Assembly: GCA_944472135.2 (NCBI GenBank)
Contig: OX235265.1
Location: 45,791,459-45,855,458, forward strand
Length of the DNA stretch: 64,000 bases
Direction: 5' to 3'
From: Trichobilharzia regenti
Taxonomy: Eukaryota; Platyhelminthes; Trematoda; Strigeidida; Schistosomatidae
The notes below the pieces were generated by a model. That model did not search any database. It worked only from the letters and a program-made list of their open reading frames with translations, and was not told the origin of the DNA. Shown here piece after piece: positions 2,887 through 63,810 of this stretch. The stretch's first letter is position 1. The number at the start of each line of letters is the position of its first letter. The position numbers and the translations under genes were made by a program.

Positions 2887-2983
2887 CAAATCAGTTAGTA
2901 TTTTCAGGCATTGGTTTTGTAGGGATTTTTGTTTGATTGCATGGAGGATTTCATCATGAGCTCACATCAGTTAGAGAACCACT

Positions 2984-3035
2984 GGGAGTACTGGACAGCT
3001 GTTTCGTTCTAGCTTGGGACTCTTCAGCATTACTC
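2984..3035 (-). ncRNA. Hammerhead ribozyme motif with intact CUGAAGA core
   Basis: On the minus strand the order is: stem I strand GAGTAATG, core CTGAAGA, stem II GTCC with loop CAAGCTA and GAAC, then GAA, the self-complementary stem III ACAGCTGT, cleavage position C, and stem I return strand CAGTACTC. Stem I pairs 7 of 8 positions; stem II has one C-A mismatch. All core nucleotides of a type I hammerhead are present. Activity is inferred, not shown; the loopless stem III suggests a weak monomer, as described for schistosome hammerheads. Confidence 0.75.
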
Positions 3036-3052
3036 TTCATCCCGGTGGATGC

Positions 3053-3098
3053 GTACTGATGAGGAGTCCTAGACTAGGACGAAACAGCTGTCAGGTAC
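3053..3098 (+). ncRNA. Degenerate hammerhead motif
   Basis: Second arm of the same palindrome. Stem I strand GTACTG, core ATGAGGA (the invariant C of CUGANGA is A), stem II GTCC/GGAC perfect, GAA, stem III ACAGCTGT, then C. The core change should abolish cleavage. Confidence 0.65.
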
Positions 3099-3176
3099 TC
3101 CCAGCTAGTTTTCCAGTGGTTCTCTAACTGATGTCAGCTCATGATGAAATCCTCCATGCAATCAAATCAGTTAGTA

Positions 3177-6364: not shown

Positions 6365-7190
6365 TATTATTACTATTTCCTTTGATTCCTAGAGGCTTAA
6401 GCCGCGCGTCTCCATTGCGTTCAGTTCTCTGTCAGAGTTTTCCCCTGGTTTCACATGCTTTCATCTCCTCTTCACATCACCTCCTCAAAGTCACCCTCGT
6501 ATTGATGAACAACTCGCCGCTTCCCTTTCGGGTTCCATCCGAACAATGGCTTGTCTAGTGATGTCACTTGATCGTTTGTCTCCTCAGCGTATGGCCAATC
6601 CATCTCCATTTCTTCCTGCCTATTCGTTTCGCAATCGATTCCTGGTTAGTTCGCTCATTGCCAGAGATCCCTGTTTCTGATCTTTTCTGGTCATCTGATC
6701 TTGAGTATTGAGCGAAGACAACTGTTAATGAAGGTCTGAAGTTTGTTTGAGATGCTCTTTATGACGCCCTGGCCAGGTCTGTGATCCGTATAGTAAGTAG
6801 CACTGACTTCACATCGGAGTTGAAACTCCGGATCTTATTTTCATTTTGATGCTGAGTAGTGCTGTTCACCTCCACACAGACTTGAGAGTAATGAAAGCTT
6901 GTCTTGCTTTGATATCCTCGTCAGTTCCGTGTGCCTGTAGTTGAAACGATGCTTCCCGGGTAGTTGAAGTAGGTTGTTTCTTTCAGGTCCCTCCCATTTA
7001 TTCTGATTGTTATCTGTTGGTGTTGGCCGAGAATCTTTATCACCTCTTTTTTCTCAATGTTCACCTGAAGTCCTGTCTTCTCTGGATGCTTCTTCTGCCA
7101 ACTTACTGCTGTTCACTTGTATATCTTCCAGTCTGTGGAAAATCAGACATATATTATCAGTGAAGTCCAGATCCTCCAAGTTTTTGTGAA
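6365..7190 (-). mobile_element. RTE-B retrotransposon, 3' fragment
   Basis: Starts at its 3' end with a TTA-rich run and tcctttgattcctag, the complement of the RTE-B tail. The minus strand reads decayed C-terminal ORF text (W-R-W-I-G-H-like and R-R-L-C-E-E-like blocks, as in the copies at 9595 and 41985). Multiple stops; dead. Confidence 0.7.
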
Positions 7191-11979: not shown

Positions 11980-12522
11980 TATATCCTAACTTGTTACAGT
12001 ATTTCATCATGAGCTGGCATCAGCTACAGAACCATTGGAAAACCAACTGGGAGTACTGGACAGCTGTTCCGTCCTAGTTTGGGACTCTTCACACTACGCA
12101 CCCACCGACAGGGTTCGAACCCAGGACCTTCTACTTACAAGGCCAGCGAGCTCGTATACCATTAAGCCACTGGGACCCGATCCAATGGCCCTTGAATTCT
12201 AACTTCTGACAATTCACGACATAGCACGACCGCTAGCCAATGCCTTCGGCGAATATTTGTCCTCACACCCGACCTTCTGTACCCTACTGGTCACGACTTC
12301 TCACTAGAACCCCAGGTAACTACCTACCTGAATAGGGGCAGTCGCTAGTGAGCATCTCATCGATATTCAAGTGTTAGTTTGTAGGGATTTCGTCCCAAAC
12401 TAGGACGAAACAGCTGTCCAGTACTCCCAGTTGGTTTTTCAATGATTCTCTAACCAATGTCAGCTCATGATGAAATCCTGTAATCAATCAAATCCCTACA
12501 AACCAACACTTTTATATCCTAA
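11980..12522. mobile_element. HH-SINE inverted pair with 10-bp target-site duplication
   Basis: A near full-length minus-strand unit (about 11998-12398, with tRNA-like A and B boxes around 12110-12175) is followed by a plus-strand partial copy (12398-12510) that begins at the hammerhead stem II. The repeat tatatcctaa lies at 11980-11989 and 12513-12522. Sits in the intron between exons 12 and 13. The minus-strand hammerhead has GTGAAGA and GGAA in place of CUGAAGA and GAAA, so it should be inactive. Confidence 0.75.
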
Positions 12523-14659: not shown

Positions 14660-15595
14660 CTGCGACGTGCCTAATAAGCAGTTCCACGATACATGAGCGA
14701 AGTAGCTGAAGACACGTTGACCGCTTCACTTATTTGGGAAGTACCATCAGCCAATGCCAACGGGTTGATCTCTGACGAAATCTCAGCTGAGTACGGATAC
14801 AGGGGCTCGTTTCGCATTTGCCAGTTTACGCCGACTCTGGTGTAGACGAGATGTTCGACTATCGACCAAAGGGCGGGTGTACTGCTCAACAGTCCTCTCC
14901 ATCCTCCTTTATGGCTAGCTGTGAGACCTGGCCACTGAGAGTGGAAGACATGAAAAGACTAGCTGTCTTTGATTATAGGTGCTTGCGCTCTATCTCCCGT
15001 GTGAAGTAGTATAATAAGGTGAGAAATATTGAGGTTAGGCGACGGGTTCTAGGCGAACAGGGGAAATCAATCGACGAGGCTTTGAAATTACATCAACCGA
15101 GATGGTTAGGACGTGTGTTACGCATTCCTGTCTAGTCATCGCCTACCTTGACAATGGGCAATGTTAGCTGACACAGGGTCAGGCTGGAAAAGAGCAAGTG
15201 GAGGTCAAACCAAAACATGGCTTCATCAGTCAATGAAATCTACAACAGTTAGTCTAAGCTAGCTACGTAGGAAGGTGTAGAATCCCTGGTTGGGGTCCTC
15301 GGGACGGTAAAAACGAATGGTATGAAACAATTGGTGACATGGCTCAAAGTCATCGTTCTCAGTGGCTGATGCAGATTCATCCACTCCTTGTGACTTATGA
15401 TCTCCAATGAAACTGTTTTGTCCTTCGTTATTACTCCTCCTTTGTCTCACACCTCTGCTCACTGTCTCTATTATGCTTTTCTTGTACCTTCTTCTGTTGT
15501 TTTGTGTGCTACACGGAGGGAGTGTGACGACTTGAACTGGTGCACATTTGTGCAAAGTTCTATGTCGAAAACAGACAGAGAGACAGCTGAAGACA
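14660..15595 (+). mobile_element. RTE-A retrotransposon, 3' fragment
   Basis: Begins near the F-T-Y-L-G-S block after the RT domain, passes through L-W-R-x-R-D-like and W-P-L-R-V-E-D-M-K text, and ends with cgaaaacagacag. Several frameshifts (for example around 14700, 14900 and 15140). Lies in the intron between exons 11 and 12. Confidence 0.8.
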
Positions 15596-17389: not shown

Positions 17390-18890
17390 CGGAATCTGTT
17401 TGTCTGTCTGTCTGTTTTCGACATAGAACTTTGCACAAATGTGCACCAGTTCAAGTCGCCACACCGTGTAGCACGCGAAGCAAGAGAAGAAAGCACAAGA
17501 AAAGCATAATAGAGACAGTGAGCAGAGGTGTGAGACAAAGGAGGAGTAATAACGAAGGACAAAACAGTTTCATTGGAGATCATAAGTCACAAGGAGTGGA
17601 TGAATCTGCATCAGCCATTGAGAACGATTTTGAGCCATGTCACCAATTGTTTCCAACCATAGATTTTTACCGTCCCGAGGACCCCAGCCTGGAAGTCTAC
17701 ACCTTCCAACATGGCTTAGACCAACTGTTGTGGATTTCATTGACTGGTGAAGCCATGTTTTTGTTTGACCGCCGCTAGCTTTTTTCCAGCCTGACCCTAT
17801 ATCCGCTAACATTCCTCGTCGAGGGAGGCGATGACTTGGCATACGTAACACATGTCCTAACCATCTCAGTCTTTGTAACTTCACAACTTCGTCAATTGAT
17901 TTCCCCTCCTTACCTAGAACTCGACGCCTAACTTCAATATTTCTCACCTTATTATACTACTTCACACGGGAAATAGAACGCAAGCACCTATGATAAAAGA
18001 CAGCTCGTCTTCTCATGTCTTCCACTCTCAGTGGCCAGGTCTCACAGCTAGCCATAAATGAGGACGGAGCGGACTGTTGAGCAGTACACCCGCCCTTTGG
18101 TCAATAGTCGAACATCTCGTCTACACCAGAGTCGGCGTAAACTGGCAAATGAGAAACGAGCCCCCTGTATCCGTACTCAGCTGAGATTTCGTCAGAGATC
18201 AACCCGTTGGCATTGGCTGATGGTACTTCCCAAATAAGTGAAGCGGTCAACGTGCTCTACCACTTCACTTCCTATTTTTAAACTAGGCATCGATGTAGTC
18301 CAGTCCTGTAACATCATCTTGCATTTGGTGGGAGCGAATCGCACTCCAAACATTCGTAGACTACAGCTCAAGGTGTTTAGAAGACTCTGCATTTCGTCAG
18401 CGTCTTCGCCTAGGAGGACTATATCGTCTGCATATTCCAAGTCAACGAGATTATTCCCTGGTAGCAAGTCAATCCCTGAGTCATTGAAGTCACTTAAGGT
18501 TAAGTCCATTAACACATCTATGATGAAGTTGAATAGAAAAGGGGATAATGGGTATCCTTGACGGACACCACTAGTCGTCACCAGTTCAGATGACAGCTCG
18601 CCGTAAGCCCTCACCTAGCTGTATGAGTACGAGTAGAGTGCCTTAATCAGTGCAATATATTTTCTCGGAATTCCCTTTACAGCCAAGCATCTCCAGAGAA
18701 CTTCTCGATCGACAGAGTCGAATTCTGCCTTTAGGTCAAGAAATATAATGACTGTTGGACGCCGTTAGGAATTCCTATGTTCTAGAATTGGTTGGAGGGT
18801 GAAGATATGATCGACACACCCTCTTCCTGGTCTAAAGCCTGCCTGGCTCTCTCGTGTTTGTGTCTCCCGAGTACCACTCAGTCTACGCAT
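17390..18890 (-). mobile_element. RTE-A retrotransposon, 3' half
   Basis: The longest truncated RTE-A. The minus strand encodes the RT palm (G-V-R-Q-G-Y-P-L-S-P-F-L and L-E-Y-A-D-D-I-V-L-L at 18560-18420), the thumb region (R-F-T-Y-L-G-S) and the C-terminal tail ending L-L-V-T-Y-D-L-Q before a natural stop. The 3' end carries a TCTG (CAGA) repeat at 17396-17414. The 140-codon frame 18614-18192 is open; the rest is broken. It lies in the 6.7-kb intron between exons 10 and 11. Confidence 0.9.
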
Positions 18891-18894
18891 GATT

Positions 18895-19480
18895 ATTATC
18901 ACGGAATGATATCAGTTAGAGAACCATTGAGATTCAGGAAGAACTGGACAGTTGTTTCGTTCTAGTTTCGGACTCATCAAGAGTATGTGCCCACTTGGAT
19001 TCGAACCAAGGACCTTCTAGTTAGTTACAAGGCAAGTTTGTAGACCATTCAGCTACTGAGATCCGACTCCATAGCCACTTCAAGAATTCTAACTTCTACC
19101 AATTCGTGACTTTACAAATCAAATCATGAAAATTAATCTAATGCTTGCAAGTGATCGGAGTTCTAGTGGAAATTCGTGATGTGTGGACACCCAGTCAGAA
19201 ATGAGGCCGAACATTCGCCGCAGATGACATTGGCTGGTGGTCGCGTTAAAATCACAAATTGGTAGAAGTTAGAATTCATGGAGTGCCGCCTATGGAGTCA
19301 GGTCTCAGTGGCTGAATGGTCTACAAGCAAGAAGGTCTTCGTTTCGAATCCCGGCGGGGAACATAATCATGATGAGTCCCAAACTAGAACGAAACAACTG
19401 TCCAGTACTACCTGGTTTTCGATAGTTCTCTAAATGCTATCAATCCGTGATCAAAACTGAAACAAATCAAATCCCAACAA
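18895..19480. mobile_element. HH-SINE inverted pair
   Basis: Minus copy 18895-19130 (B box ggattcgaacc, hammerhead core TTGATGA with stem II GTCC/GAAC) followed by plus copy 19160-19480 (A box tggctgaatgg, B box gtttcgaatcc, hammerhead around 19365-19410). I did not find a clear target-site duplication. Confidence 0.7.
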
Positions 19481-19499
19481 ACAGACAGACAAAAATTCA

Positions 19500-20519: not shown

Positions 20520-21259
20520 TAAAACGTGATAGGATTTCATGATGAGTTGACATTGGTTAGAGAACCATTGGAAAACCAACTGGGAGTACTGGACAGCTGT
20601 TCCGTCCCCGTTTGGGACTCTTCATTAGTATGCGCCCACCGCTAGGGTTCGAACCCAGGACCTTCTGGTTACAAGGGTAGCGAGCTCGTAGCCCATTAAG
20701 CCACTGGGACCCGATCCAATGGCCAGCCCATGAATTCTCGCTTCTGCCAATGTCTTCGGCGAGTGTTTGTCCTCACACCCGACCTTCTGCACCCTACTGG
20801 ACACGACAACATCTAATCCCTACAAACCAACACTTGAATATCGGTGAGATGCTCACTAGCGACTTCCCCTATTCAGGTAGGTAGCTACCTGGGGTTCTAG
20901 TGAGAAATCGTAATAGTAGGATGCAGAAGGTCGGGTGTAAGGACAAATACTCGCCGAAGGTGACATTGGCTAGCCATCGCACTAAGTTGTGAATTGGCAG
21001 AAGTTAAAATTCATGGTCTGATCACTGGATCGGGTTCCAATGGCCTAATGATCTACGAGCTCACTAGTCGTGTTACCAGGACGTCTTGGGTTCAAACCCT
21101 GTCGGTGGGTGCGCACTGATGAAGAATTCCAAATTAGGACGAAACAACTGCCCAGTACTCCCAAGTTTTCCAATGGTTCCGTAGCTGATGCCAGCTCATG
21201 ATGAAATCCTGCAACCAACCAATCAAATCCTTACAAACCAACACTTAAAACGTGATAGG
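20520..21259. mobile_element. HH-SINE full-length inverted pair with 14-bp target-site duplication
   Basis: The most complete pair: minus copy about 20530-20835, plus copy about 20833-21245. Both contain tRNA-like A and B boxes, the stretch around the ggtcgggtg block, and the hammerhead region. The direct repeat taaaacgtgatagg is at 20520-20533 and 21246-21259. Total insert about 710 bp. Hammerhead cores are mutated in both halves. Confidence 0.85.
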
Positions 21260-21695
21260 CCGGAACTTCAGAGTTAATTGATCGAAAGTCAAGAACTAGT
21301 GAACTACACACAGATTTATTCAGCTTCATGTACTGCAGGTAGGAACTCTAATAACTGAGGTAGTCATCCACATCAAAAAAGGATAAGCCAGTGGGAATAT
21401 ACAGTGATTTATAATTTAAAATTCAAGCAATCTAAGAGATGTTGGTTACAACCATTGGAAAATATTCTGAAATCATAGATGATCTACGCTCTCTTGAAGA
21501 TGCTTGTACATTTTACAGATAGATTACGGTCAGAGTTTTCAGCGAGAAAGTTATACAGTTTATAATTTGGTGGCCAGCAGAAATATACACTGCAGGCGAC
21601 AAAATATATATTTACAATAGCACTAGACTGACTAATTTTATTATGGCACAAATTGCAAATATTTGCTTTGATTATAATTGGTGACTAGCAGTGGA

Positions 21696-21740
21696 ATCCG
21701 GGATGTGCATTTCGTCCTATTTGAGACTCGTCAACTGGAG
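21696..21740 (-). ncRNA. Hammerhead motif, Sm-alpha type, degenerate
   Basis: Minus strand: CTCCAG, core TTGACGA, GTCT with loop and AGGAC region, GAAA, TGCACATC, CCGGAT. The invariant core C is T. Stem I has two mismatches. Probably inactive. Confidence 0.6.
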
Positions 21741-21848
21741 GTATCTCCATTGCCCAGTGAGTGATGACGTCCCCACCAAGGCTCGAACCCAGTGCCCATA
21801 GTTCGAGTCTCCGTGGGAACATCACCACCCCCTGGGGAATGCAGGTAC

Positions 21849-21893
21849 ATCCAGTTGACGAATCCCAAATAAGACGAAATGCGCATCCTGGAT
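21849..21893 (+). ncRNA. Hammerhead motif, Sm-alpha type, degenerate
   Basis: Stem I ATCCAG/CTGGAT is perfect, core TTGACGA (C to T), stem II ATCC/AGAC decayed, GAAA, stem III ATGCGCAT (self-complementary), cleavage C. Layout identical to HH-SINE but with a different stem I and stem III sequence. Confidence 0.65.
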
Positions 21894-22199
21894 TCCACTG
21901 CTATTCACCATCCAACAAATAAATTCGAATCGATGCACCTGCACAAGAAGTTGACACGTCAACCTGAAACCGAGCACTTCGGTCCAATCAATCGACGGGA
22001 AAATCTAAAATTGAATTCAATTCGCTTTGACTGTTGAGGCTGTGGTTTAATATTTTGGAAGTAAGACACTTAAACAAACAAAACAGAATTAGGTATCACA
22101 GTTTTTAACCGCAAGATGGCGTCATAACATCTATAAACAACCTAGTACAATCGAGTGTACAAAGACTTCCGTCTTCCTCTTGAAATGCCCTTATGTGCC

Positions 22200-24208: not shown

Positions 24209-24780
24209 GTATCACTAGGACTCCGATCAGGAAGTCTGCACTTCCTTGATTTGCCGGCTTAAACCAACTGCCAAAGAATTTATGATCAGATGACAGGTTG
24301 TGGTTTGAGAACCCCTAACTTCACTCTTTTCCAACTTGGTCCTACATGTAGTAACACTAATCAAAGGAGAAAGCAGTGAATTGGTATGGGAGCAGCACGT
24401 GTTCCAGCTATATGAATGAATAAAGGTGAACAACATCACCGATTGACATTACCCGTCTAACCTAACACTCCACGCCTAACCTGAATATAACTCACAATAT
24501 TATACCACTTAATACGGGAGATAGAACGCTAACGTGTCTGCGGGGTAAAAGGCAGATAGACTCTTCACATATCTTTCATTTACAATGACTATGTCTCATA
24601 AACACATAGTAGGAGAGAATGAGGACTGATGCCCAGTAGTACAGCTATCCTTTGATCAATAATCAGTCGGATATCCCGACTACCGCGTATAAGACATAAG
24701 TTGGCATATGCAACACGATAATACCAGATTTCTACCAATTCACCGTAATTTAGAGTAGTCATCAATGAAAACAAGATTTA
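24209..24780 (-). repeat. RTE-A 3' fragment, right part
   Basis: Continues the RTE-A copy: ggaagtctgcacttcc (as at 1811 and 17693), then a block containing cacttaatacgggag, then diverged upstream text. All frames are broken. Confidence 0.65.
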
Positions 24781-24784
24781 CTCA

Positions 24785-25015
24785 GTTTTACGAGTTGATC
24801 ACGGATTGGTATCAGCTAGAGAATCATTGGAAACCAGCACTGGAGTACTGGACAGCTGTTTCATCCTAGTTTGGGAATCATCGGCAGTACGCACCCACTG
24901 GGGTTCGAATTCATGAGTCATTGAATCAGGTCCCAGTGGCTGAATGGTATGGGAGCTTGCCTTGTAACCAGAAGGTCGTGGGTTTGAGTCGTGATGAACT
25001 CGTAAAGACAAAACT
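24785..25015. mobile_element. HH-SINE inverted pair, compact
   Basis: Minus part 24795-24915 (hammerhead and B box ggggttcgaattc) joined to a plus part 24920-25010 (A box tggctgaatggt, B-box region gggtttgagtcg). The flanks share atttactca (about 24775 and 25038), a possible but weak target-site duplication. Confidence 0.65.
24845..24890 (-). ncRNA. Hammerhead motif with perfect stem I, one core change
   Basis: Minus strand: GTACTG, core CCGATGA (U4 to C), TTCC, loop CAAACTA, GGAT, GAA, stem III ACAGCTGT, cleavage C, then CAGTAC. Stem I is perfect at six pairs. It shows that the ancestral arrangement was GTACTG-CTGANGA. It lies in intron 9 in the sense of the coiled-coil gene transcript. Confidence 0.65.
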
Positions 25016-28449: not shown

Positions 28450-29620
28450 GAACATCAACTAATAGTGAAATATTGATCGATATGATTCAACGGTACAGAA
28501 GAGATTAAAACTATAAGATACACAAGTTTTCCCCACCTATTCATAATAGTGTCCACAGGTTGTTGTTTTTTTATTAAAATTTCCTCACATGAGCCCGTTT
28601 CAATCACTTTATCGACCTTGTTGATATAATCTGATGAGTCCATGTCTACCTATTGTGTTATCCTTATCTGATTTGGTGGCAGTCAATAAGCTCGTGGCAT
28701 TCTTCAAGCTCTTATAAGCTGCTGTCTCTTTTTGTGTTAAGTTGTCTCTAAGCTTCCTTATGATGTTTTGGTGTTAATGTACATTATGCTCTGACTTGTT
28801 CAGCAGTAGTTCTGTCTACAAATGTTGGTTTGTAGGGATTTGGTTGGTTACAGGATTTCACCAAATTAGGACGAAAGAGCTGTCCAGTACTCCCAGGTTT
28901 TCCAATGGTTCTCTAGCCAATGTCAGCTAATGATGAAATCCAGTAGTTCCGTCTATTTCCCTCGATGTTACTTTTATACTAAACATGATATCTTCAGGTT
29001 TCAATCTATTAACGGGCTCTATTGAAGTTTAATCATTTTTTCAAATATTTTCATTTCATCAAAACTTGAGGCTCTTGTCGAGAGGTTAACTACCAACTTT
29101 GTTTTATCGATGGCTGACACTATTTTATTAGCAGGTTATTCCACCCACCCAATCCCACACTTTAATTAGTGGAACATTTCGATTTGAGTATTTTCGGATT
29201 TATTGAACGCAGATGAACTTACCTTTTTAGGTTGTTTCGAGTGTGATTTCTTAATGACCCTTTTCATTTACTTTATTTTTAAGATCGGTTTACAGCTGTT
29301 CAATCCCATGCCTGATGAAAGTTAGTTTACTGATAATTATGTGGATTTCTCTTAAACAGGAGTCTACCAGGTAGGTGTTCACCTTTCTTATTGTAACCGG
29401 GACGCGTATACGAAGATATCTAGGCATAATTCCACTTTTTAAGCATTGAATGTTAAAAATAGAATAATTCCTTAATCTTGCTTCTCTTTGTGATAGTTGT
29501 ATGAGTTTATTGACTAGTCTTCGAAAAGGCAGACCATAGGTATCATTAAGGTAAGTGTAGAACTTGGGCAGTGTGTTTTGAGTCTGGATTTCAGTGCCCA
29601 CGTTATACAATTACATTAAC
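28450..29620 (-). mobile_element. Penelope-like element, N-terminal coding fragment
   Basis: Minus strand. An open 106-codon frame (29610-29290) contains L-P-K-F-Y-T-Y-L and R-L-V-N-K-L-I-Q-L, followed after frameshifts by K-L-R-D-N-L-T-Q-K-E near 28750 and S-D-Y-I-N-K-V-D-K near 28630, the order seen at the start of PLE proteins before the reverse transcriptase fingers. RT and GIY-YIG parts are missing. An HH-SINE is nested inside at 28818-28941. Confidence 0.7.
28805..28954. mobile_element. HH-SINE short palindrome nested in PLE, 13-bp duplication
   Basis: Left minus-strand stub tgttggtttgtaggg...ggatttcacc is joined to a plus-strand 3' half starting at aaattaggacgaaag. The repeat agtagttctgtct (28805-28817) recurs with one change at 28942-28954. 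Removing the insert restores a continuous PLE sequence, so it entered after the PLE. Confidence 0.8.
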
Positions 29621-30423: not shown

Positions 30424-30689
30424 CTGGACAAATAAACAAGTAGACAGAAGAAAAAGGGAAATAGGAAAACAAAAGTAAGTAGTGATTAACTAAATAGCTA
30501 ATAAACTCAGTAATCAAGTCATTTTTTACGCATCATGCAATTTAAATGACAACTCCATCAAAAAAACTAAACGGAAAAAAATAATAATTTCAATTTTTTT
30601 ATGTTGACAAAACTGAGCAACTCTTATCATGCATGGATAGTATGTTTATTTAATGAAAACACGACAGAATATGAGGAAAAGTATTTTTC

Positions 30690-31110
30690 TAGTGTTAGTT
30701 TGTAAGCATTCGATTAGTTTCCAGTTTGACCACGGATTGGTAATTAAGTTGGTTTCATCTTAATTCGGGACTCTAGCAGTATATGCAACCATGAACCTCA
30801 CTGGGAAGGGGAATCGAGCCTGGGCCCTTAAAGGTTACTGCTAGACTATCTCGTTGACGTTTCAGCAACTGGGTCGGAATTCCAACCTCTGCCAATTCGT
30901 GATCAGAAGTGAGAATTCATAGGCCATTGAATTACTTCTCAGGGGTTGAACAACCAATTAGCTCGTCTAGTTAACCCGAAGATCTAGGGTACAATCCATA
31001 GTGAAATCATGGTGGTGTACTGTCGAAGAGACCCCAAAAAAACGGTTGTCCGGTTATCATCTAGTTCTCCTCAATGATTCTCTAACTGATATCAGTGCGT
31101 CATCAAACTT
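30690..31110. mobile_element. HH-SINE inverted pair, diverged
   Basis: Minus copy 30700-30900 (gggactctagcag = hammerhead strand, B-box-like gaatcgagcc) then plus copy 30900-31110 (A-box-like ggttgaacaacc, hammerhead region gtactgtcgaagagacc). Older than the others by divergence. Confidence 0.6.
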
Positions 31111-31212
31111 GAACAGAAGGTGGAAGAAAGTAGTGCGGAAAACAACTTTGTCTTTATTTCAAAATCAATTAACAATAATGAATCTTCAAGTTGATTATTA
31201 AAATATAAGTTA

Positions 31213-31605
31213 CAGGATTTCATCATGAGCTGACATTAGTTAGAGAGCTATTGGAAAACCTGGGAGTGCTGGACATCTGTTTCGTCCCAGTCTAGGACTC
31301 TTCATCAGTACGCACCCATCAGTAGGTTACAGCAGGTCGGGTGTAAGGACAAATACTCGCCAAAGACATTGGCTGGAAGTCGCGCTATGTCGTAAATTGG
31401 CAGAAGTTAGAATTCATGAACTGGCCATTGGATCGGGTCCCAGTGGCTTAGTGGTATACGAGTTCGCTTTGTAACCCCGGTGGGTGCGTACTGACGAGGA
31501 GTCTCAAACTAAGATGAAACAGCTGTCCAGTACTCCCAGGTGGTTTTCCAATGGTTCTCTAACCAATGTCAGCTCATGATGAAATCCTGTGACCAATCAA
31601 TTTTT
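31213..31605. mobile_element. HH-SINE inverted pair
   Basis: Minus part 31213-31325 and plus part 31326-31605. The plus hammerhead reads GTACTG, ACGAGGA, GTCT, loop, AAGAT, GAAA, CAGCTGTC, CAGTAC: stem I perfect, core C to A. Immediately followed by a fragment of the 37385-type repeat at 31606-31715. Confidence 0.7.
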
Positions 31606-36285: not shown

Positions 36286-36389
36286 CTGTAAAAAACAAAA
36301 AGACATAACAGTAGACGAGAAATTTCAAAATAGATTAAATATTGTCACTGATGAAAGTATTAAATAACAATGATTTGTTATTATTTAAT

Positions 36390-36560
36390 TGGTGGATGGT
36401 GACTAGCAGTGGAATCCAGGATGCCCATTTTGTCCTATTTAGGACTCATCATCTGGATGTACCTGCATTACCCAGTGAGTGATGATGTTCCCACCGAGGC
36501 TCGAACCTAGTGCCCATAGTTTCAAACGCCAATCAACAGGAAAATCTAAAATTCAATTAA
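36390..36560 (-). repeat. Sm-alpha-like hammerhead repeat
   Basis: Same subfamily as 21680-21905 (gactagcagtggaatcc start, B-box-like gaggctcgaaccta). It is followed at 36665 by a plus-strand HH-SINE, again in the order minus then plus. Confidence 0.65.
36414..36458 (-). ncRNA. Hammerhead motif, Sm-alpha type, degenerate
   Basis: Stem I ATCCAG/CTGGAT perfect, core ATGATGA (C to A), stem II GTCC/GGAC perfect, G12 changed (ACAAAA instead of CGAAA). Two core changes; inactive. Located within intron 6 in the gene's sense orientation. Confidence 0.6.
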
Positions 36561-36664
36561 ATAATTTGTTATGAAATAAAATTGAAAATGGGACTTCGAA
36601 AGATAGTACGGAGTTAGCAGTACTGTCATAATCTATGATCTAACCAATCCCTAATTCTCATGAC

Positions 36665-45112: not shown

Positions 45113-48100
45113 GACCGACCGAAAGCTGCTACCTTGACGTGGTGGTCGGGCTTGAACACCGCAATGACCTATTCAAGCTATACTGGCTGAGACTTATGTC
45201 TCTTGAGGTTCTACCATGCCAGGCAGGTTGTTTGGATAGCGGTTAAACAAAAAGCAGCTACCCAATCCAACATCATGTCCAATACAAAATCACAAAATTT
45301 CATGCCGGATCGGCCGTGGCCCGGATTAACAACGACCGCGCTTCCTGCTGCCGTGTCACAGGGCAGGAGTGATAAATATGCTACTGAGACACACCAAACA
45401 AAAAAGAACGAACAAAAACAGGCCGCGTGTGACCGGCCTCAAGCAGTTGTCCCCTGGGCTCTGCGGTCACGCAACCAACTTCCACGGTGTGGGCAGCCGG
45501 GAAGTAACAATCGCCCTCACAATCCGAAATGCACACGAAACCTCTCTATTACTCACTCATCTTTGTCTTCATCTTCATCTCTATCATCTTGCCTTCCTTC
45601 CACTGATGCAACTCCTCGACTTGATAGCTCTCCACTTCCTCTCCACTCTGCGTCCACTAAAAACGATGGAAGCCAAAAAACCACCACCGACAGCCTCTTA
45701 AAGCCGCGCCACCAATTTCATATAGGAGCTCTTAATGTTAGGACACTTTGCCAAATAGGACAACAAGCATCACTAGCCAAGACCCTGGCATCACGAGCCA
45801 TTGATGTATGCTGTGTTTCAGAAACACGCATACAAGACCCAAGTGTGGTTATTCACCTAACCCCACCTGGCCAACAGGTTGAATCTGCAAAATTCACCTT
45901 GAGGGTGTCAGGAGATGCCACAGCTAGTTCACGAGGATTAGCTGGCGTAGGGATAGCTTTGAGTACTAGGGCAGAAAAGACATTGCTTGACTGGATCCCG
46001 GTAGATAGCCGAATGTGTGCTGTCCGCCTGAACGGATCAGTAAGAAGGAGGAAGGACTGCACTACTCGCCGATGCCTTTTCGTAATCTCCGCCTACGCCC
46101 CCACTGACTGCAGTTCAGATGAAACGAAGGATGAGTTCTACCAAAAGCTGTCTAGTTTGGTGCGAAAGGCTAAACGCTCAGACATAGTCGTTCTAGCTGG
46201 TGACTTTAACGCTCAAGTAGGGAAATTGTGTCAATCTGAGAAGGATGTCGGTGGCACCTATGGAGTTCCGTGCCAGCGAACCGACAACGGTGACCGTCTC
46301 CTACAGTTCTGCTCTGATAATCATTTGTTTCTTGTAAGCACTAACTTCAAACACAAGGAGAGACACTGTTTGACTTGGAGACCCCCTTCATCAAACCAAC
46401 GCTGGACACAAATAGACCACATAGCAATAAGCTATCGTTGGCGTGGGTCGGTAGGAGATTGTCGCTCCTTCTGGAACACGTGCGTAGATACCGACCATGC
46501 ACTGGTCCGCGCTCGGGTGTGCTTACGACTGAACGGACGTAGGAAACAGCTGGCGGTAAAACCATCACGTCCCCAGCTCGATCAGGAAACTAAATCCGTA
46601 TTTGAGGAAGAACTAGCTAAACACATATCTGTGTTCGACAGCTGTGCTCACCCTGAAGAAGCTTGGAAAAATATCCAGGCAGCCATAGATACAGCTGTAA
46701 AAGCTGTGAATAAGGTAAACCCAAAGGTGAGTAAAAACCACTGGATCTCCACCGCCTCATCCGAACTGATAGATGCTAGAAGACTTATTCCGGCGAGCTC
46801 CGAATTCAATGAGGAGCGAAAGCTGCACAAGAGGAAACTTACGAAAAGTCTCCGCAAGGACCGTGAACAGTGGTGGGCGACAAAAGCCAAAGAGATGGAG
46901 AAAGCTTCGAGGATAGGCAACACCAGGCAACTCTTTGGACTCATCAGGGAAACGGGTGGGAGAAGACAAATCATTAGTGAGACAATCTCGGAAAAAAATG
47001 GCACTATAATTAGCTCCCAGGATAGACGACTGGATCGTTGGAAAGAGCATTATGAGGAGCAGTTTAATTTGCCCACAGCCACGCTCAACCTTCCGAGCAT
47101 CCAACACCTCCCTGAATGGGATATAGACACAGGTCCTCCGTCACTAACTGAGGTTACTAAAGCTGTCACCAATCTGAAACTAGGCAAAGCAGCGGGACCT
47201 GATGGAATGACTCCAGAGGTATTTAAGTACGGTGGAGACAGCTTACTGTCTGGATTAACTGAGGTACTAGGCAGCGTCTGGGAATCAGAAGAAGTCCCAT
47301 CGGGTTGGTGTAAGTCACTGATTATCCCCATATACAAGAAGGGAGACAAGTCTTCCTGTGATAATCACAGAGGGATTAGCTTGACTAATATAGTATCTAA
47401 AGTCTTAGGCTCAATAATCATGCGTAGACTGAGTGGTGCTCGGGAAGCACAAACACGAGAGAGCCAGGCAGGCTTTAGACCAGGAAGAGGGTGTATTGAT
47501 CATATCTTCACCCTCCGACAGATTCTAGAACATAGGCATTCCTACCGGCGTCCAACAGTCATTATATTTCTTGACCTAAAGGCAGCATTCGACTCTGTCG
47601 ATCGGGAAGTTCTCTGGAGATGCTTGGCTGTAAAGGGAATTCCGAGAAAATATATTGCACTGATTAAGGCACTCTACTCGTACTCATACAGCCAGGTGAG
47701 GGCTTACGGCGAGCTGTCATCTGAACTGATGACGACCAGTGGTGTCCGTCAAGGATGCCCATTATCTCCTTTTCTATTCAACTTCATCATAGATGTGTTA
47801 ATGGACTTAACCCTAGGTGACTTCAGCGACTCAGGGATTGACTTGCTACCAGGGAATAATCTCGTTGACTTGGAATATGCAGACGATATAGTCCTTCTAG
47901 GCGAAGACGCTGACGAAATGCAGAGTCTTCTAAACACCTTGAGCGGCAATCTACGAATGTTTGGCATGCGATTCGCTCCCGCCAAATGCAAGATGATGTT
48001 ACAGGACTGGACTACATCGACGCCTAGTTTAAAAATAGGAAGTGAAGTGGTAGAGCACGTTGACCGCTTCACTTATTTGGGAAGTACCATCAGCCAACCC

Positions 48101-48912
48101 AACGGGTTGATCTCTGACGAAATCTCAGCACGAATACAGGGGGCTCGTTTCGCATTTGTTAGTTTACGCCGACTCTGGCGTAGACGAGATGTTCGACTAT
48201 CGACCAAAGGGCGGGTGTACTGCTCATCAGTCCGCTCCGTCCTCCTTTATGGTTGTGAGACCTGGCCACTGAGAGTGGAAGACATGAAAAGACTAGCTGT
48301 CTTTGATCATAGGTGCCTGCGTTCTATCTCCCGTGTAAAGTGGCATAATAAGGTGAGCAATATTGAGGTTAGGCGTCGGGTTCTAGGTAAGGAGGGGAAA
48401 TCAATCGACGAGGCTTTGAAATTACATCAGCCGAGATGGTTAGGACGTGTGTTACGCATTCCTAGTTATCGCCTTCCTCGACAAGCAATGTTAGCTGATA
48501 CAGAGTCAGGCTGAAAAAGAGCTAGCTAGCGGCGGTCAAACCAAAACATGGCCTCACCAGTCAATGAAATCCACAACAGTTGGTCTAACCCATGTAGGAA
48601 GGTGTAGACTTCCAGGCTGGGGTCTTCGGGACGGTAAAAATCTATGGTTGGAAACAATTGGTGACATGGCTCAAAATCGTTCTCAATGGCTAATGCAGAT
48701 TCATTCACTCCTTGTGACTTATGATTTCCAATGAAACAGTTTTGTTCTTCGTTATTACTCCTTTGTCTCACACCTCTGCTCACTGTCTCTATTATGCTTT
48801 TCTTGTACTTTCTTCTCTTGCTTCGCGTGCTACACGGTGTGGCGACTTGAACTGGTGCACATTTGTGCAAAGTTCTATGTCGAAAACAGACAGACACAGA
48901 CAGACAGGCAGA
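45113..48912 (+). mobile_element. RTE-A non-LTR retrotransposon, near-complete
   Basis: About 3.8 kb: short 5' leader, one long ORF, 3' UTR and a CAGA-type end (48888-48912). RTE-clade elements are usually 3.2-3.8 kb with a single APE-endonuclease plus RT ORF, so size and layout fit. It lies in intron 5 of the coiled-coil gene in the opposite orientation. The leader starts near ggaccgaccgaaagctgc; the exact 5' end is uncertain because of an R-SINE/RTE-B tail-like stretch just left of it. Confidence 0.85.
45275..48514 (+). CDS. RTE-A endonuclease-reverse transcriptase ORF, prematurely terminated
   Basis: First in-frame ATG at 45275, 1079 codons. A Ser/Pro-rich N-terminal linker, then an APE-type endonuclease from about residue 148 (L-N-V-R-T, S-E-T-R-I, L-A-G-D-F-N-A, I-D-H-I-A-I-S, D-T-D-H-A-L-V) to about 405. 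The reverse transcriptase has A-G-P-D-G near 637, F-L-D-L-K-A-A-F-D near 765, G-V-R-Q-G-C-P-L-S-P-F near 822, Y-A-D-D near 868 and F-T-Y-L-G-S near 931. Catalytic residues look intact. Compared with the copies at 15180 and 44330, TGG of S-G-W-K-R-A-S has become TGA, removing about 75 C-terminal residues; a small insertion follows at 48525-48533. Enzymatic domains are uninterrupted, so this is a recently inserted copy, possibly still producing RT. Start choice: no in-frame ATG precedes it. Confidence 0.85.
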   Translation: MSNTKSQNFMPDRPWPGLTTTALPAAVSQGRSDKYATETHQTKKNEQKQAACDRPQAVVPWALRSRNQLPRCGQPGSNNRPHNPKCTRNLSITHSSLSSSSSLSSCLPSTDATPRLDSSPLPLHSASTKNDGSQKTTTDSLLKPRHQFHIGALNVRTLCQIGQQASLAKTLASRAIDVCCVSETRIQDPSVVIHLTPPGQQVESAKFTLRVSGDATASSRGLAGVGIALSTRAEKTLLDWIPVDSRMCAVRLNGSVRRRKDCTTRRCLFVISAYAPTDCSSDETKDEFYQKLSSLVRKAKRSDIVVLAGDFNAQVGKLCQSEKDVGGTYGVPCQRTDNGDRLLQFCSDNHLFLVSTNFKHKERHCLTWRPPSSNQRWTQIDHIAISYRWRGSVGDCRSFWNTCVDTDHALVRARVCLRLNGRRKQLAVKPSRPQLDQETKSVFEEELAKHISVFDSCAHPEEAWKNIQAAIDTAVKAVNKVNPKVSKNHWISTASSELIDARRLIPASSEFNEERKLHKRKLTKSLRKDREQWWATKAKEMEKASRIGNTRQLFGLIRETGGRRQIISETISEKNGTIISSQDRRLDRWKEHYEEQFNLPTATLNLPSIQHLPEWDIDTGPPSLTEVTKAVTNLKLGKAAGPDGMTPEVFKYGGDSLLSGLTEVLGSVWESEEVPSGWCKSLIIPIYKKGDKSSCDNHRGISLTNIVSKVLGSIIMRRLSGAREAQTRESQAGFRPGRGCIDHIFTLRQILEHRHSYRRPTVIIFLDLKAAFDSVDREVLWRCLAVKGIPRKYIALIKALYSYSYSQVRAYGELSSELMTTSGVRQGCPLSPFLFNFIIDVLMDLTLGDFSDSGIDLLPGNNLVDLEYADDIVLLGEDADEMQSLLNTLSGNLRMFGMRFAPAKCKMMLQDWTTSTPSLKIGSEVVEHVDRFTYLGSTISQPNGLISDEISARIQGARFAFVSLRRLWRRRDVRLSTKGRVYCSSVRSVLLYGCETWPLRVEDMKRLAVFDHRCLRSISRVKWHNKVSNIEVRRRVLGKEGKSIDEALKLHQPRWLGRVLRIPSYRLPRQAMLADTESG

Positions 48913-53164: not shown

Positions 53165-54020
53165 ATAATGTTTCTTACCATTTGTTCATGTTGGTTTTTA
53201 GAATGCGCACATTGTTCCAATCGATATTGTGGCTTTTGTCCCATGCATGTGCAGCTATCGATGAATTTTTCTCAAGATTCTTGTAGACTTATGTTCCTGT
53301 TGGTTGACCTTCGGTTAGGCGTTTATGTACATTCACTACTATTTTGAGTGATCTGGACGTTTGCCCCACATATTTAGTCGGACAGTCAGCACAAGATATT
53401 TTGTAAATCAAATTGTTTTGATATATCATTTTTATGGGATCTTTCAGTGGATTTATTTTATTTTTGATTAGATTCGTCGGTTTAAACGTTGTTCGAATGC
53501 CGATATTCTTGAGGTTTCTTTGAATTGCCTCTGATGTACAATTTTTATGTGGCATTGTGACTGTTTTTTCCATTCTTCCATTTTGCTATTCTCCGGTTTT
53601 ACCCTCTTTTTCCTCTTTTTTATATTATCTTTTATAAATTCTTTTGGGTAGTTGTTTTCGAGTAGCATTTTGAATAGGACGTTTATTTCTTTACACTGGA
53701 CCTCTGGTGTTGTTGTAAGCCTACGTATTCTGTCTGCAAGACATTGCGTTAATCCTCATTATACGGTGAGTGGATGAGCTGAGTGATAATCAAGGAATTT
53801 TCCAGAGTGTGTGGTTTTTCTACAGATCGTCGTTTTTATGCTACCATCTATTATTCTTTGTATTTCGCAGTCTAACATAGGCAGTTCCCCGATTTCATTC
53901 TCTATTTCCATAGTAAATTTTATTGAGTCGACATGGCCGTTTATGTGTGAGAAAAGTTTCTCAGTATCGTTTTTTTTCACTATTACTAGTGTGTCGTCTA
54001 CATATCCCCTTTCAAAAATA
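53165..54020 (-). mobile_element. Penelope-like element, RT C-terminus plus GIY-YIG
   Basis: Minus strand: R-G-Y-V-D-D-T-L-V-I-V (RT catalytic box) near 53995, K-F-L-D-Y-H-S-A-H-P near 53790, then after frameshifts L-I-Y-K-I-S-C-A-D-C with K-Y-V-G-Q-T-S-R-S-L near 53400-53340 (the GIY-YIG endonuclease) and H-A-W-D-K-S-H-N-I-D-W near 53240. This domain order is diagnostic for PLEs. At least two frameshifts; dead. It starts just inside intron 4, next to the donor of exon 4. Confidence 0.85.
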
Positions 54021-54031
54021 CTAATACTCAC

Positions 54032-54139
54032 CGTGATTAATGCCATCCGTGTACTTATAATATGTTCAAGTTCGCATAAACGTTTCGTTTTTTCTTCCAG
54101 TAATTGTTTAGCTGATCCTAATTCTTCATCAAACTGCAG
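54032..54139 (-). CDS. Coiled-coil gene, exon 4
   Basis: Acceptor tacttttcag before CTG-CAG-TTT and donor ACG|GTGAGT; 108 nt, phase 0 to 0, visible residues 147-182. Coiled coil (E-E-L-G-S-A-K-Q-L-L-E-E-K-T-K-R-L). A second AG six bases in (ctgcag) could serve as an alternative acceptor, dropping two residues. The PLE fragment begins within a few dozen bases of the donor and happens to be in the same frame, so the last few codons could in principle belong to the insertion. Confidence 0.8.
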
Positions 54140-54159
54140 CTGAAAAGTACCACCACACC

Positions 54160-55120
54160 AGATATAATATAAATATAAAGTATAATAAATAAACGTGATT
54201 TTAGATTAACTACTATTATAATTAATTATTTGGTTACATACCTTCTTAGAGAAGTGAGAAACCGATTGGAAACATGCACGCATTCAATATATGATAAGTG
54301 GATTCGAAGTCCATTCAACACTAATTCTTTTAGTCATACTGGATTGGAATCAGTGGGACAGAACAGATGTTTCATGTGTTTCAAACTAAGCACCACCACA
54401 CTTACTGTCTGAGGACAGATGAAAAATACTACTCAGTCAGTTATCTAAGCTGAGATACAGGTGGAGCATGATTCAAAGCCAAAAGACTCACTGGCTGAAA
54501 GTCAAATGATTAAGCCAGTGAGAGCTCTACATTGCCTATCTTCATACTAGAGATTTTGAATACAGTAAAAACAATGGTTTGTGTAGAATTTTGCCAATAT
54601 AAAATAGGGATAATTTAAGAATGTTGACAGATCATATATCGGGATCCTTATGAACAAGTAGTAGGTTACGTCAAATGATATCATGAACTTTATTGGACAC
54701 TTACACATGATTCAGGCTTTTAATGAAATGAAATGAATCTTTCAAGGTACACACACATCTAGTCGTTGATGAATAGATTTCAACTTTGGTGAACGCCAAC
54801 GCACAACACTGTGCTGCAGAGAGTTAATCATAGGACGACAAATAGGCTTGTATGTTTTCGGCAAGCCAGCCATGTGACGCTAAGGAGACTCTCTCTAGGT
54901 TTTTTGAATCATCTTAAGGAGTGTTGTAAATCAGTTGTTTTTTTTTCTTTAGCAGCTCTCTCAACATATTTCTGATGCGTTTACTCAACTGAATCAGTTT
55001 AATCTTCTTTGAGATTTTCCACTTTAAACGTCAACAGTTCACTTAAAATAGATTTCATCTTTGTAATATATAGCACCCTCTTTGCCCATCAACAACCCGG
55101 CCCTGAGCTTTTATCACGTC
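54160..55120. other. Intronic DNA, possible old SINE head
   Basis: Around 54465-54540 the minus strand has a tggcttaatca A-box-like motif and a gaatcatgctccac end similar to 32935-33000. Otherwise nothing recognised. Confidence 0.35.
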
Positions 55121-55122
55121 GC

Positions 55123-55371
55123 AATATCAGGATTTTGTTACAGGATTTCATCATGACCTGGCATTGGTTAAGCCACTTAATGGTATACGAGCCCGCCTTG
55201 TAACCAGAAGGTCATGGGTTCAAACCCCGGTGGCGTGTACTGCTGAAGAGCCCAGTTGTCCAGTACTCCCAGTTGGTTTTCCAATGGTTCTCTAACCAAT
55301 GTCAGCTCATGATGAAATCCTGTAACCAATCAAATCCCTACAAACCAATACTTAAATATCAGGATTTTGTT
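55123..55371. mobile_element. HH-SINE palindromic unit with 17-bp target-site duplication
   Basis: The repeat aatatcaggattttgtt is at 55123-55139 and 55355-55371. The insert begins with a 31-bp minus-strand stub (acaggatttcatcatg...) that is the inverted repeat of the other side (gatgaaatcctgt), then continues as a plus-strand copy with A box, B box ggttcaaacccc and a broken hammerhead. Confidence 0.85.
55237..55266 (+). ncRNA. Broken hammerhead with intact CUGAAGA
   Basis: GTACTG, CTGAAGA and CAGTAC are kept, but the stem II end, GAAA and half of stem III are deleted. Shows that the source sequence had the conserved core C. Confidence 0.65.
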
Positions 55372-56599: not shown

Positions 56600-57768
56600 T
56601 TTAAACGCAGAAAAAACTAGGTACAATATGGCACCAACAAAGATGCGCCACACAATAATAATAAAACAACATAGATCAAAAGTAAAAATATATGTAGAGA
56701 ACGGATTAAGAACTTCATATGGAAAGAAAACAGTCATGCTTAACAAGTTCAAACAGTATTCGTTAACTATCGTCACGAAGGGAAGAAAGAAGTAAATTGC
56801 AACACGTTCACAAGTGATTACGATTCTTGCTCATATCCAACAACGTTTTAAGCCATCGATTCGAGCTATCTCGCGGACCCAAACCAGGGAGTCGTGAGGC
56901 ACCAACCGATGCTAATCTAGCATAAAAATTCTTCACCCCACAATGCCACGTCATGCACTGACCACCTCTCCACCTTTCCACCCCGTCCCAGGGCCGGCTG
57001 AAGAACAGAGACCTGTACGGAAGCCTCTGGAATGACATTCACAGCACGTGTCCAAGCCACCGGAGCCGATGTTTCCAGATGACGACACTCCATAAACGGT
57101 GATCTCCACTGTGTTCAAACACACACCGCCGAACCTCAGAATTACTCACGCGATGATGCCATCCATCGAACGAAAGCAATCCTGCGGAGACAGAGATGAT
57201 CGAACACGCAGAGTCGCCCCACATCCTCGGCCCACTCAGAGATGCCAGGTTTCGCAGACGTAGAGAGACACACCCCACACTAAAGCATTGTATACCCGAC
57301 CTTCGACAACCAGGCTAACGTCGCGACGGCTCCAGAGGTGGCTCAAGTTGATGTATGACAACCTAGCCTTCATTATACGGTTGGAAATCTCATCCGTCAC
57401 CCCTCCCTTCACCAGCACTCACACAACTACCCACATACACAAACTTATCAACAACTTCAAGCGGTTCAGCCTCAAGAGTGAATGCAGGTACACACTCCTG
57501 CCAATCTTGTAACATTACTTTGCACTTACACGGCGCAAACCACATACCATACTTATAGACACTGATCGCCAACTGATTAAGTGCAATTTGGGCAGCCTGC
57601 ATGCTATCGCACAGTAAAACGACATCGTCTGCATACTCGAGGTCGAAAAGTCTATCTCCAGGTAGCAGATTTACACCACCTTCACGCACATCCTTCAGAC
57701 CTGACTCCAGAATGTCATCGATGGCAAAGTTAAAGAGAAATGGAGAGATTGGGCAACCATGTCTAACC
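56600..57768 (-). mobile_element. RTE-C retrotransposon, 3' half (copy 2)
   Basis: Same as 39430-40540 but with intact L-E-Y-A-D-D-V-V-L-L and about 80 bp more at the 5' side (G-C-P-I-S-P-F-L-F-N-F). The C-terminus is 76 codons open (57038-56808), including S-R-L-P-G-L-G-P-R-D. Both copies share frameshifts and the same 3' end, so they descend from the same or a very similar source. Confidence 0.85.
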
Positions 57769-63060: not shown

Positions 63061-63077
63061 TAGTGTTTAAACTCAAA

Positions 63078-63810
63078 TCACAACACCAACAAGAAACCAT
63101 CATCAAAGACTACAAGAAAATTCATCCCACCATATATAAGAAATATCTCTGAAATAACAGCTAGAATACTGAAACCGTTTGAAATAGATATAAAACACAA
63201 GCCAGTCAAATCACTTAATTCGATATTAAGCAAACCGAAAGATCCAACAGAAAAAGGAGATAAAATTAATACCATTCACAAAATAAATTGTATGAACTGT
63301 AACAGACATCACATCGGCCGAAGTGGGTATCTCTTTCGAATCAGAATCCAGGAACACAAACTAGCTGTGAGAAGACATGATACATATTCTTTCATATCAA
63401 TGCATGTAGATAATTATGGACGTTAATTTGATTTGGATAATGTCGAAATCTTAGATAGATGAAACACCAAAAGTGCCAGAGAATTCCTTGAGCGAATATA
63501 CGATTAACAAACATGTTAATATGGATGAAATCTACCAACTAATTAAAAGTAAATTATGTGACGAGAAAGTTCAAAATCTAAGTCAATCAAAAGTGATCAA
63601 TACAGATGTAAATCGACTACCAGTCACGAAGATAGTTGCCAGGAGACACAATTCTATCATTCATGGAGCATTTAAATCAGTTGATTTTATGCTAAAACTT
63701 GCGCTGAAGATATTGTCCAGAAGGACGACGAAAGCTCCACAATTAAACCAAGCAGCTCAGAGAACACAACTAATCGCAAGTCTACACCTCCCTTTACACG
63801 AATGAAAACA
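63078..63810 (+). mobile_element. Penelope-like element, C-terminal fragment
   Basis: Plus strand: I-P-P-Y-I-R-N-I-S-E, A-R-I-L-K-P-F, H-K-P-V-K-S-L, then I-H-K-I-N-C-M-N-C with H-H-I-G-R-S-G (a GIY-YIG domain with the YVGQ-type motif changed) and I-Q-E-H-K. Stops at 63424 and beyond. It has the same order as the PLE at 53165-54020 but is diverged from it. Confidence 0.75.

Follow-up and report, generated by a model that had tools for sequence, protein, structure and literature searches.

Head-to-Head Pairs of Hammerhead Ribozyme SINEs in a 64-kb Window of Trichobilharzia regenti Apparently Form Anew with Every Insertion, Probably through Penelope-like Machinery

Results

The window, by which we mean the whole 64-kb stretch of Trichobilharzia regenti DNA that was analyzed, contains two hammerhead-bearing repeat families, and the pair of inverted copies at 20520–21259 belongs to the main one. 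Aligning the arms of this family to a tandem consensus gives a period of 405 nt, and the corresponding unit of ∼405 nt is non-coding and composed of a tRNA-like stretch, a type I hammerhead ribozyme (the type assigned to the window hammerheads by matches to Rfam RF00163), and an A+C-rich 3′ tail. Unit positions are counted from the hammerhead cut, which we take, on the basis of the known hammerhead core, to lie before CAGTACTCCC in the consensus. At 20520–20533 is the left copy of a 14-bp target-site duplication (TSD), TAAAACGTGATAGG (p = 0.0007), followed by a left arm on the minus strand (20534–20809, aligned to 20798 and extended by eye to 20809) that was copied from a short (S) start, with a TSD-defined outer end at +55, and is truncated inward, the alignment ending at −232. 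This arm carries a type I hammerhead (20586–20631, minus strand), which matches RF00163 with 36.4 bits (gathering score 34), and a tRNA-like stretch (20632–20727, minus strand) with a B-box-like GGTTCGAACCC, called as tRNA-Arg by ARAGORN and the single tRNA-like gene that the program reports in the window. The right arm (20811–21245, plus strand), delimited by alignment, spans one complete unit together with the previous unit's tail and was copied from a long (L) start; its outer end falls at +97 by alignment and at +93 when defined by the TSD, and its inner end at −336 is equivalent to +69 of the previous unit. The previous unit's tail occupies the inner end (20811–20838, plus strand) and matches 21222–21249 at 89%. 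The right-arm type I hammerhead (21113–21158, plus strand) scores 28.6 bits, under the gathering score of 34, and the right TSD copy was located at 21246–21259 by the direct-repeat test. No open reading frame of at least 110 aa is present inside the pair.

When the unit consensus was doubled and searched with ARAGORN at a relaxed threshold, four tRNA-like calls were obtained (two Thr and two ambiguous). From its sequence, the tRNA-like stretch with the B-box-like motif is possibly a Pol III promoter. As in metazoan retrozymes, the type I hammerhead is embedded in a non-coding repeat within the range of 150–450 nt, and the tail is present at both ends of two arms; we saw no arrays of at least two whole units in the window, and an exact 21-mer search of viral contigs gave no match.

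A profile search of the whole window, using profiles built from window copies, returned 33 rows, compared with none in the reversed window. The 18 neighboring rows that lie within 800 bp of each other comprise 12 in minus-plus, three in plus-minus, and three in minus-minus order. All three minus-minus cases are two models matching one copy, all three plus-minus cases fall between separate loci (gaps of 97, 357, and 430 bp), and one minus-plus case (36418/36696, 185 bp) consists of copies of two different families. With double hits and separate insertions removed, the bias is toward minus-plus, and all 11 abutting pairs, ten from the main family and one from the second, are head-to-head with the minus copy preceding the plus copy and with gaps of −26 to 84 bp within same-family pairs. 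A first-pass annotation of this DNA had stated that the order is always minus then plus and never the reverse, which holds for each of these 11 abutting pairs, and its description of the copies as mostly paired is a fair one, the ten main-family pairs outnumbering six single rows of that family in the profile search (6280, 7188, 11539, 36696, 41249, and 50042).

The same annotation had listed 36390/36665 as a loose pair. The two copies are indeed neighbors, but they look like two insertions rather than one pair: taken together, their flanks share only a 5-mer (p = 0.641), and an older main-family copy apparently lies beside a second-family insertion. The second-family locus (36374–36562) has a candidate 9-nt TSD; tested alone from 36383, its best word is ATTAAATAA (9 nt, p = 0.0047), an ambiguous assignment, as the boundary was set by eye after viewing and the repeat favored by eye was ATTTGTTAT. 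The abutting pair of the second family (21672–22023) contains two strong hammerheads and presumably resembles Sm-alpha. Its candidate 7-bp repeat GCTTTGA (p = 0.054) depends on a right boundary picked after the repeat was noticed. By eye, the S site of the second family is near +38 and the L site near +165, giving a tail far longer than that of the main family.

Direct repeats lie outside the whole pair in six of the ten main-family pairs. In addition to 20520–21259, these are found at 676–1005 (11-bp TSD; S left, L right), 2887–3176 (14-bp TSD; L left, S right), 11980–12522 (10-bp TSD; the left arm a full unit plus previous tail from S, the right arm short with the tail, from L), 28805–28954 (13-bp TSD with one mismatch; L left, S right), and 55123–55371 (17-bp TSD; S left, L right). 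The longest exact word shared by the flanks is 9–17 nt at these loci, with p values of 0.0003–0.0053 against 3000 random flank pairs (uncorrected), and the duplications measure 10, 11, 13, 14, 14, and 17 bp. We thus recovered all six repeats proposed in the first-pass annotation as flanking whole pairs. An outer repeat was not found at the other four main-family pairs, which are an older pair at 18888–19487 (18895; S left, L right), a pair at 24775–24987 (24795; S left, with a broken right arm that ends at −54), an old pair at 30687–31108 (30700; L left, S right), where the flanks share a 6-mer only, given without a p value, and a pair at 31209–31601 (31213) with short ends on both sides. Repeats around a single arm were convincing in none of the nine main-family pairs tested, and the lowest p value (0.05, at 31213) came from a 7-mer that belongs to the unit itself. 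The earlier expectation that duplications bracket pairs and not halves therefore agrees with the window data (6 of 10 outside the pair, 0 of 9 convincing around one half). Because the TSDs lie outside the pair and not convincingly around one half, both halves entered together, and each TSD-flanked palindrome is one insertion. Three single copies were also tested and lacked a clear TSD (41240, p = 0.935; 50045, p = 0.059; 36680, p = 0.934).

Outer ends were taken from the alignment of the arms to the tandem consensus, with slightly laxer scoring for 30700 and further single copies. Of the 20 ends of the ten main-family pairs, 19 fall at 54–77 (S) or 91–104 (L), ranges that were defined after the data were seen, and the sole exception is the right arm at 24795 (−54). 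The same two ranges account for the ends of the single copies at 7188, 11539, 36680, 41240, and 50045; 6280, an internal fragment, is excluded. When the ends are defined by the TSDs, S spans 55–71 (mean 61.7, S.D. 5.2, n = 6) and L spans 93–99 (mean 95.8, S.D. 2.0, n = 6); the offset of about 34 nt between them constitutes the one-sided tail, and the S–L stretch has an A+C content of 76%, compared with 49% for the unit. One S end is combined with one L end in eight of the nine two-ended pairs (the six with TSDs, 18895, and 30700), which at equal odds has a one-tailed binomial probability of ∼0.02, computed by hand; the exception to this rule is 31213, with S on both sides.

The 20 inner ends have an S.D. 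of 109, and the inner junctions all differ among the ten main-family pairs, although the single end positions −24 and −232 each recur twice. Copying of the palindrome as a unit would keep the inner junction, but no junction is common to two pairs, so that such copying is not supported. The view that the pairs behave as single mobile units, advanced in the first-pass annotation, is therefore retained in one respect, as there is one insertion per TSD pair, but not in the other, as the differing inner junctions at ten pairs argue against a palindrome that propagates as a unit. Instead, each insertion seems to form its palindrome anew. As a separate, post hoc observation, six of the 20 inner ends are located between −52 and −24, within or just upstream of the ribozyme (window positions 871, 3033, 3041, 12392, 28861, and 31318), as if reverse transcriptase (RT) stalls on the folded hammerhead, which we record as a lead and not as a claim.

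We compared the two arms of each pair to assess their relationship. Both arms have sequence of their own at 676, 11980, and 28805, where one carries the tail and the other extends further inward; as neither arm is contained in the other, neither was copied from the other. The arms diverge by 21% at 676, 11% at 2887, 10% at 11980, and 17% at 20520. The TSDs at these four loci match perfectly over a total of 49 bp (P = 0.0003 had they aged together with the arms), a value biased by the detection of the TSDs through exact matching, which favors perfect ones. With 28805 and 55123 (little overlap), 24795, and 30700 left out of the comparison, four of six pairs (2887, 11980, 18895, and 31213) have mates that resemble each other more than they resemble other copies on average, which counts against two different RNAs as a general rule; those at 18895 are mutual nearest copies. 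The mates at 676 (ranks 10 of 18 and 13 of 19) and at 20520 (ranks 11 of 17 and 10 of 19) are no closer than other copies, and comparison of their sequences suggests that the two arms at these loci likely had different source RNAs. Two full-length arms (20520 right and 11980 left) reach +69 and +72 of the previous unit, next to S, and because they hold a whole unit plus the previous tail, their template was tandem or circular and not a linear monomer. Tandem transcripts and circular RNA are known for hammerhead retroelements (PMC7229834). The TSDs share 1–6 nt with the template, a microhomology that is subject to bias, as the junction coordinate came from the same alignment.

The window also contains fragments of elements that encode an RT. 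A LINE is represented by a long open frame at 45191–48514 (plus strand) that encodes endonuclease and RT domains, and RT fragments are found at 18192–18614 and 57390–57767 (both minus strand). A decayed piece at 63064–63805 (plus strand) contains a GIY-YIG-like fragment (63064–63426, plus strand) that matches a T. regenti GIY-YIG protein at 71% and is, from its motifs, presumably of Penelope type. A decayed fragment at 53759–54205 (minus strand), which matches a T. regenti protein at 83% over 55% of its length, is from its motifs presumably RT-like; its homologues are annotated as “helix-turn-helix domain” and “unnamed.” For both Penelope-type fragments, a Pfam scan gave no family above cutoff and NCBIfam gave no match. 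The fragment at 63064–63426 possibly represents a helper family present in the genome, but neither fragment was linked to the unit, and no Penelope element carrying the unit's tail was found in the window. Rfam mir-3492 matches occur at 48065–48145 (minus strand; 47 bits, cutoff 44), antisense to the LINE open frame, at 18159–18245 (plus strand; 28.1 bits, under the cutoff), partly antisense to the RT fragment, and weakly at 14722–14801. As matches are antisense to the LINE frame and, in part, to the RT fragment, mir-3492 may represent part of a retrotransposon.

Discussion

The pairs are probably made by Penelope-like machinery that primes on the ribozyme RNA from both target strands, the resulting cDNAs then being joined. 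In such a mechanism, the unit RNA would be used by an RT coupled to a GIY-YIG endonuclease, which would cut the target twice in a staggered fashion, and reverse transcription of the ribozyme RNA would be primed by both 3′ ends, each at a fixed internal position, which is either S (about +55 to +71 after the hammerhead cut) or L (about +93 to +99). The template would be either two RNA molecules or one tandem or circular RNA. The two cDNAs would converge, halt at variable points, and be joined, and the product would be a palindrome of head-to-head arms whose outer ends are fixed and whose inner junction varies, with a one-sided tail and a duplication of 10–17 bp on the outside. The Penelope identity of the enzyme, the priming from both strands, and the choice between two RNAs and one tandem or circular template are what we infer for this scheme, and a Penelope helper for the unit would follow from the footprint. 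The data comprise ten main-family pairs in one 64-kb window, and one of these, 31213, with S at both ends and without a TSD, counts against the scheme; the single copies with S or L ends indicate that a mate arm is not obligatory. A more tentative extension, to which we give slightly less than even credence, is that the hammerhead SINE took over the start region, with its two sites, that a Penelope-type enzyme uses, that dimeric both-strand priming, often on two different RNA templates, would be its normal mode of insertion, and that palindromes would be the default product and never inherited as such. If this is true, self-priming would not be needed to account for the inverted pseudo-LTRs of Penelope elements.

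Several other origins could be envisaged for a palindrome with flanking duplications. A master palindrome that spreads as one mobile unit, as the first-pass annotation held, fits the TSDs around the whole pair, the constant order, and the closer-than-average mates in four of six pairs. We consider it very improbable and reject or at least disfavor it, as the ten main-family pairs have fixed outer ends but no inner junction in common between any two, the mates at 676 and 20520 are no closer than other copies, and the promoter-like stretches point outward in both arms, so that a transcript would not be expected to span the palindrome. Long inverted repeats and flanking duplications are both present, as in a foldback DNA transposon or MITE, but such an origin is scarcely credible: the TSDs of such an element would not vary in length as those here do (10, 11, 13, 14, 14, and 17 bp), which is the ground for its rejection or disfavor. 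In addition, one end is longer than the other by about 34 nt, some copies have a single arm, and the arms are unequal with variable inner ends.

Twin priming yields inversions with outer TSDs, and a LINE-driven SINE insertion that used it to copy a tandem or circular retrozyme RNA would account for those seen here, as well as for the variable TSD length and the previous unit's tail in two arms; a LINE frame with the appropriate endonuclease and RT domains is present in the window. However, twin priming leads one to expect one 3′ end together with random internal priming, whereas the outer ends here fall at the two fixed internal positions S and L, and eight of nine two-ended pairs combine both. 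Moreover, no poly-A or simple-repeat tail was seen by eye at the loci inspected, and the ten main-family pairs exceed the six single rows, and we regard this origin as unlikely. Snap-back or self-priming, in which one cDNA or template folds and is copied back, yields palindromes, has been proposed for Penelope-like elements (PLEs) (PMC3846280), and by a containment test is compatible with seven of the ten pairs, which do not decide the matter. It is nevertheless disfavored or rejected on the three loci at 676, 11980, and 28805, where each arm holds sequence that its mate lacks, and the divergence of the arms (10–21%) compared with the perfect TSDs (0 of 49 bp at four loci, P = 0.0003, with the exact-match bias) argues further against it, and we judge it improbable.

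Both-strand priming by a Penelope-like enzyme has parallels in characterized elements. Penelope elements of bdelloid rotifers have head-to-head inverted pseudo-LTRs, one with an optional 31-bp tail, and TSDs of 8–10 bp, some insertions lacking a TSD, and self-priming was put forward for their palindromes (PMC3846280). Purified PAc, the Anolis enzyme, cleaves the two strands and extends each of them, and two adjacent internal starts delimit a tail of 30–40 bp; the commonest start is at an AC-rich stem-loop 111–118 nt into the ORF, which, with the hammerhead cut at +26, is 85–92 nt from the cut, and the starts are reported to be non-homologous to the target (PMC11167929), whereas the TSDs here share 1–6 nt with the template in the biased comparison noted above. 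The pairs described here resemble Penelope elements (Pen2a_Av and PAc) in their head-to-head repeats, one-sided tail of 30–40 nt, and outer TSD, in the internal RT starts downstream of the hammerhead cut, and in the occasional insertions without a TSD. The distance from cut to start is close to that of PAc but not identical (93–99 for L, compared with 85–92 for PAc); the PAc start may be the inner site, in which case S fits less well, and an AC-rich stem-loop was not predicted for the unit consensus. Unlike in Penelope elements, the repeats here neither enclose nor adjoin an ORF, the palindrome is the entire insertion, and each repeat consists of a tRNA-like SINE unit; the TSDs are 10–17 bp, compared with 8–10 bp in the rotifer elements (PMC3846280).

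The unit is also like metazoan non-LTR retrozymes, which are non-coding elements of 150–450 bp with type I hammerheads, TSDs, and tandem or circular RNA (PMC7229834, PMC7761336) and are present in platyhelminths (PMC7229834). In the available text of these two papers, the retrozymes are described as direct tandem repeats, unlike the head-to-head pairs here, and the terms “inverted,” “head-to-head,” and “orientation” are absent from the main text of PMC7229834. Among schistosome elements, Sm-alpha and Sj-alpha (Ferbeyre 1998 and Laha 2000, cited in PMC8490949 and PMC3653858) are SINE-like and carry a type I hammerhead. The main family differs from them in its 405-nt unit, and palindromic insertion is unmentioned for Sm-alpha and Sj-alpha in the accessible passages of the citing papers. 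The W elements of Schistosoma mansoni are satellite-like, some with type I hammerheads and one Sm-alpha-like, and TSDs and internal inverted repeats are reported for them (PMC8490949); they are satellite repeats, for which the accessible part of that paper describes neither head-to-head pairs with a one-sided tail nor a Penelope mechanism. The first-pass annotation knew of no palindromic form of Sm-alpha, and our search likewise revealed no prior palindromic pairs of Sm-alpha or hammerhead SINEs among the matches listed in the literature searched, PMC8490949 being a near precedent in schistosomes and PMC3846280 presenting the same architecture for the pseudo-LTRs of Penelope elements. The pieces are known separately, and no paper that joins them was found among those listed matches.

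A 2020 review notes that animal ribozyme retroelements have no motif revealing an autonomous helper, and it suspects PLEs from the common type I hammerheads and from co-occurrence (PMC7761336). In the pairs described here, the insertion footprint itself points to PLEs as the mover of ribozyme SINEs. The pairs also bear on the inverted repeats of PLEs, in that those at 676, 11980, and 28805 cannot arise by copying one arm from the other.

A minor feature of the unit concerns the use of two RNA molecules as template. The stem III hexamer of the hammerhead is perfectly palindromic in 6 of the 15 copies, among 21 examined, that have a match to a loose pattern, of which at least the match in the right arm at 20520 is to the wrong site, and one idea is that two RNAs might dimerize through this hexamer.
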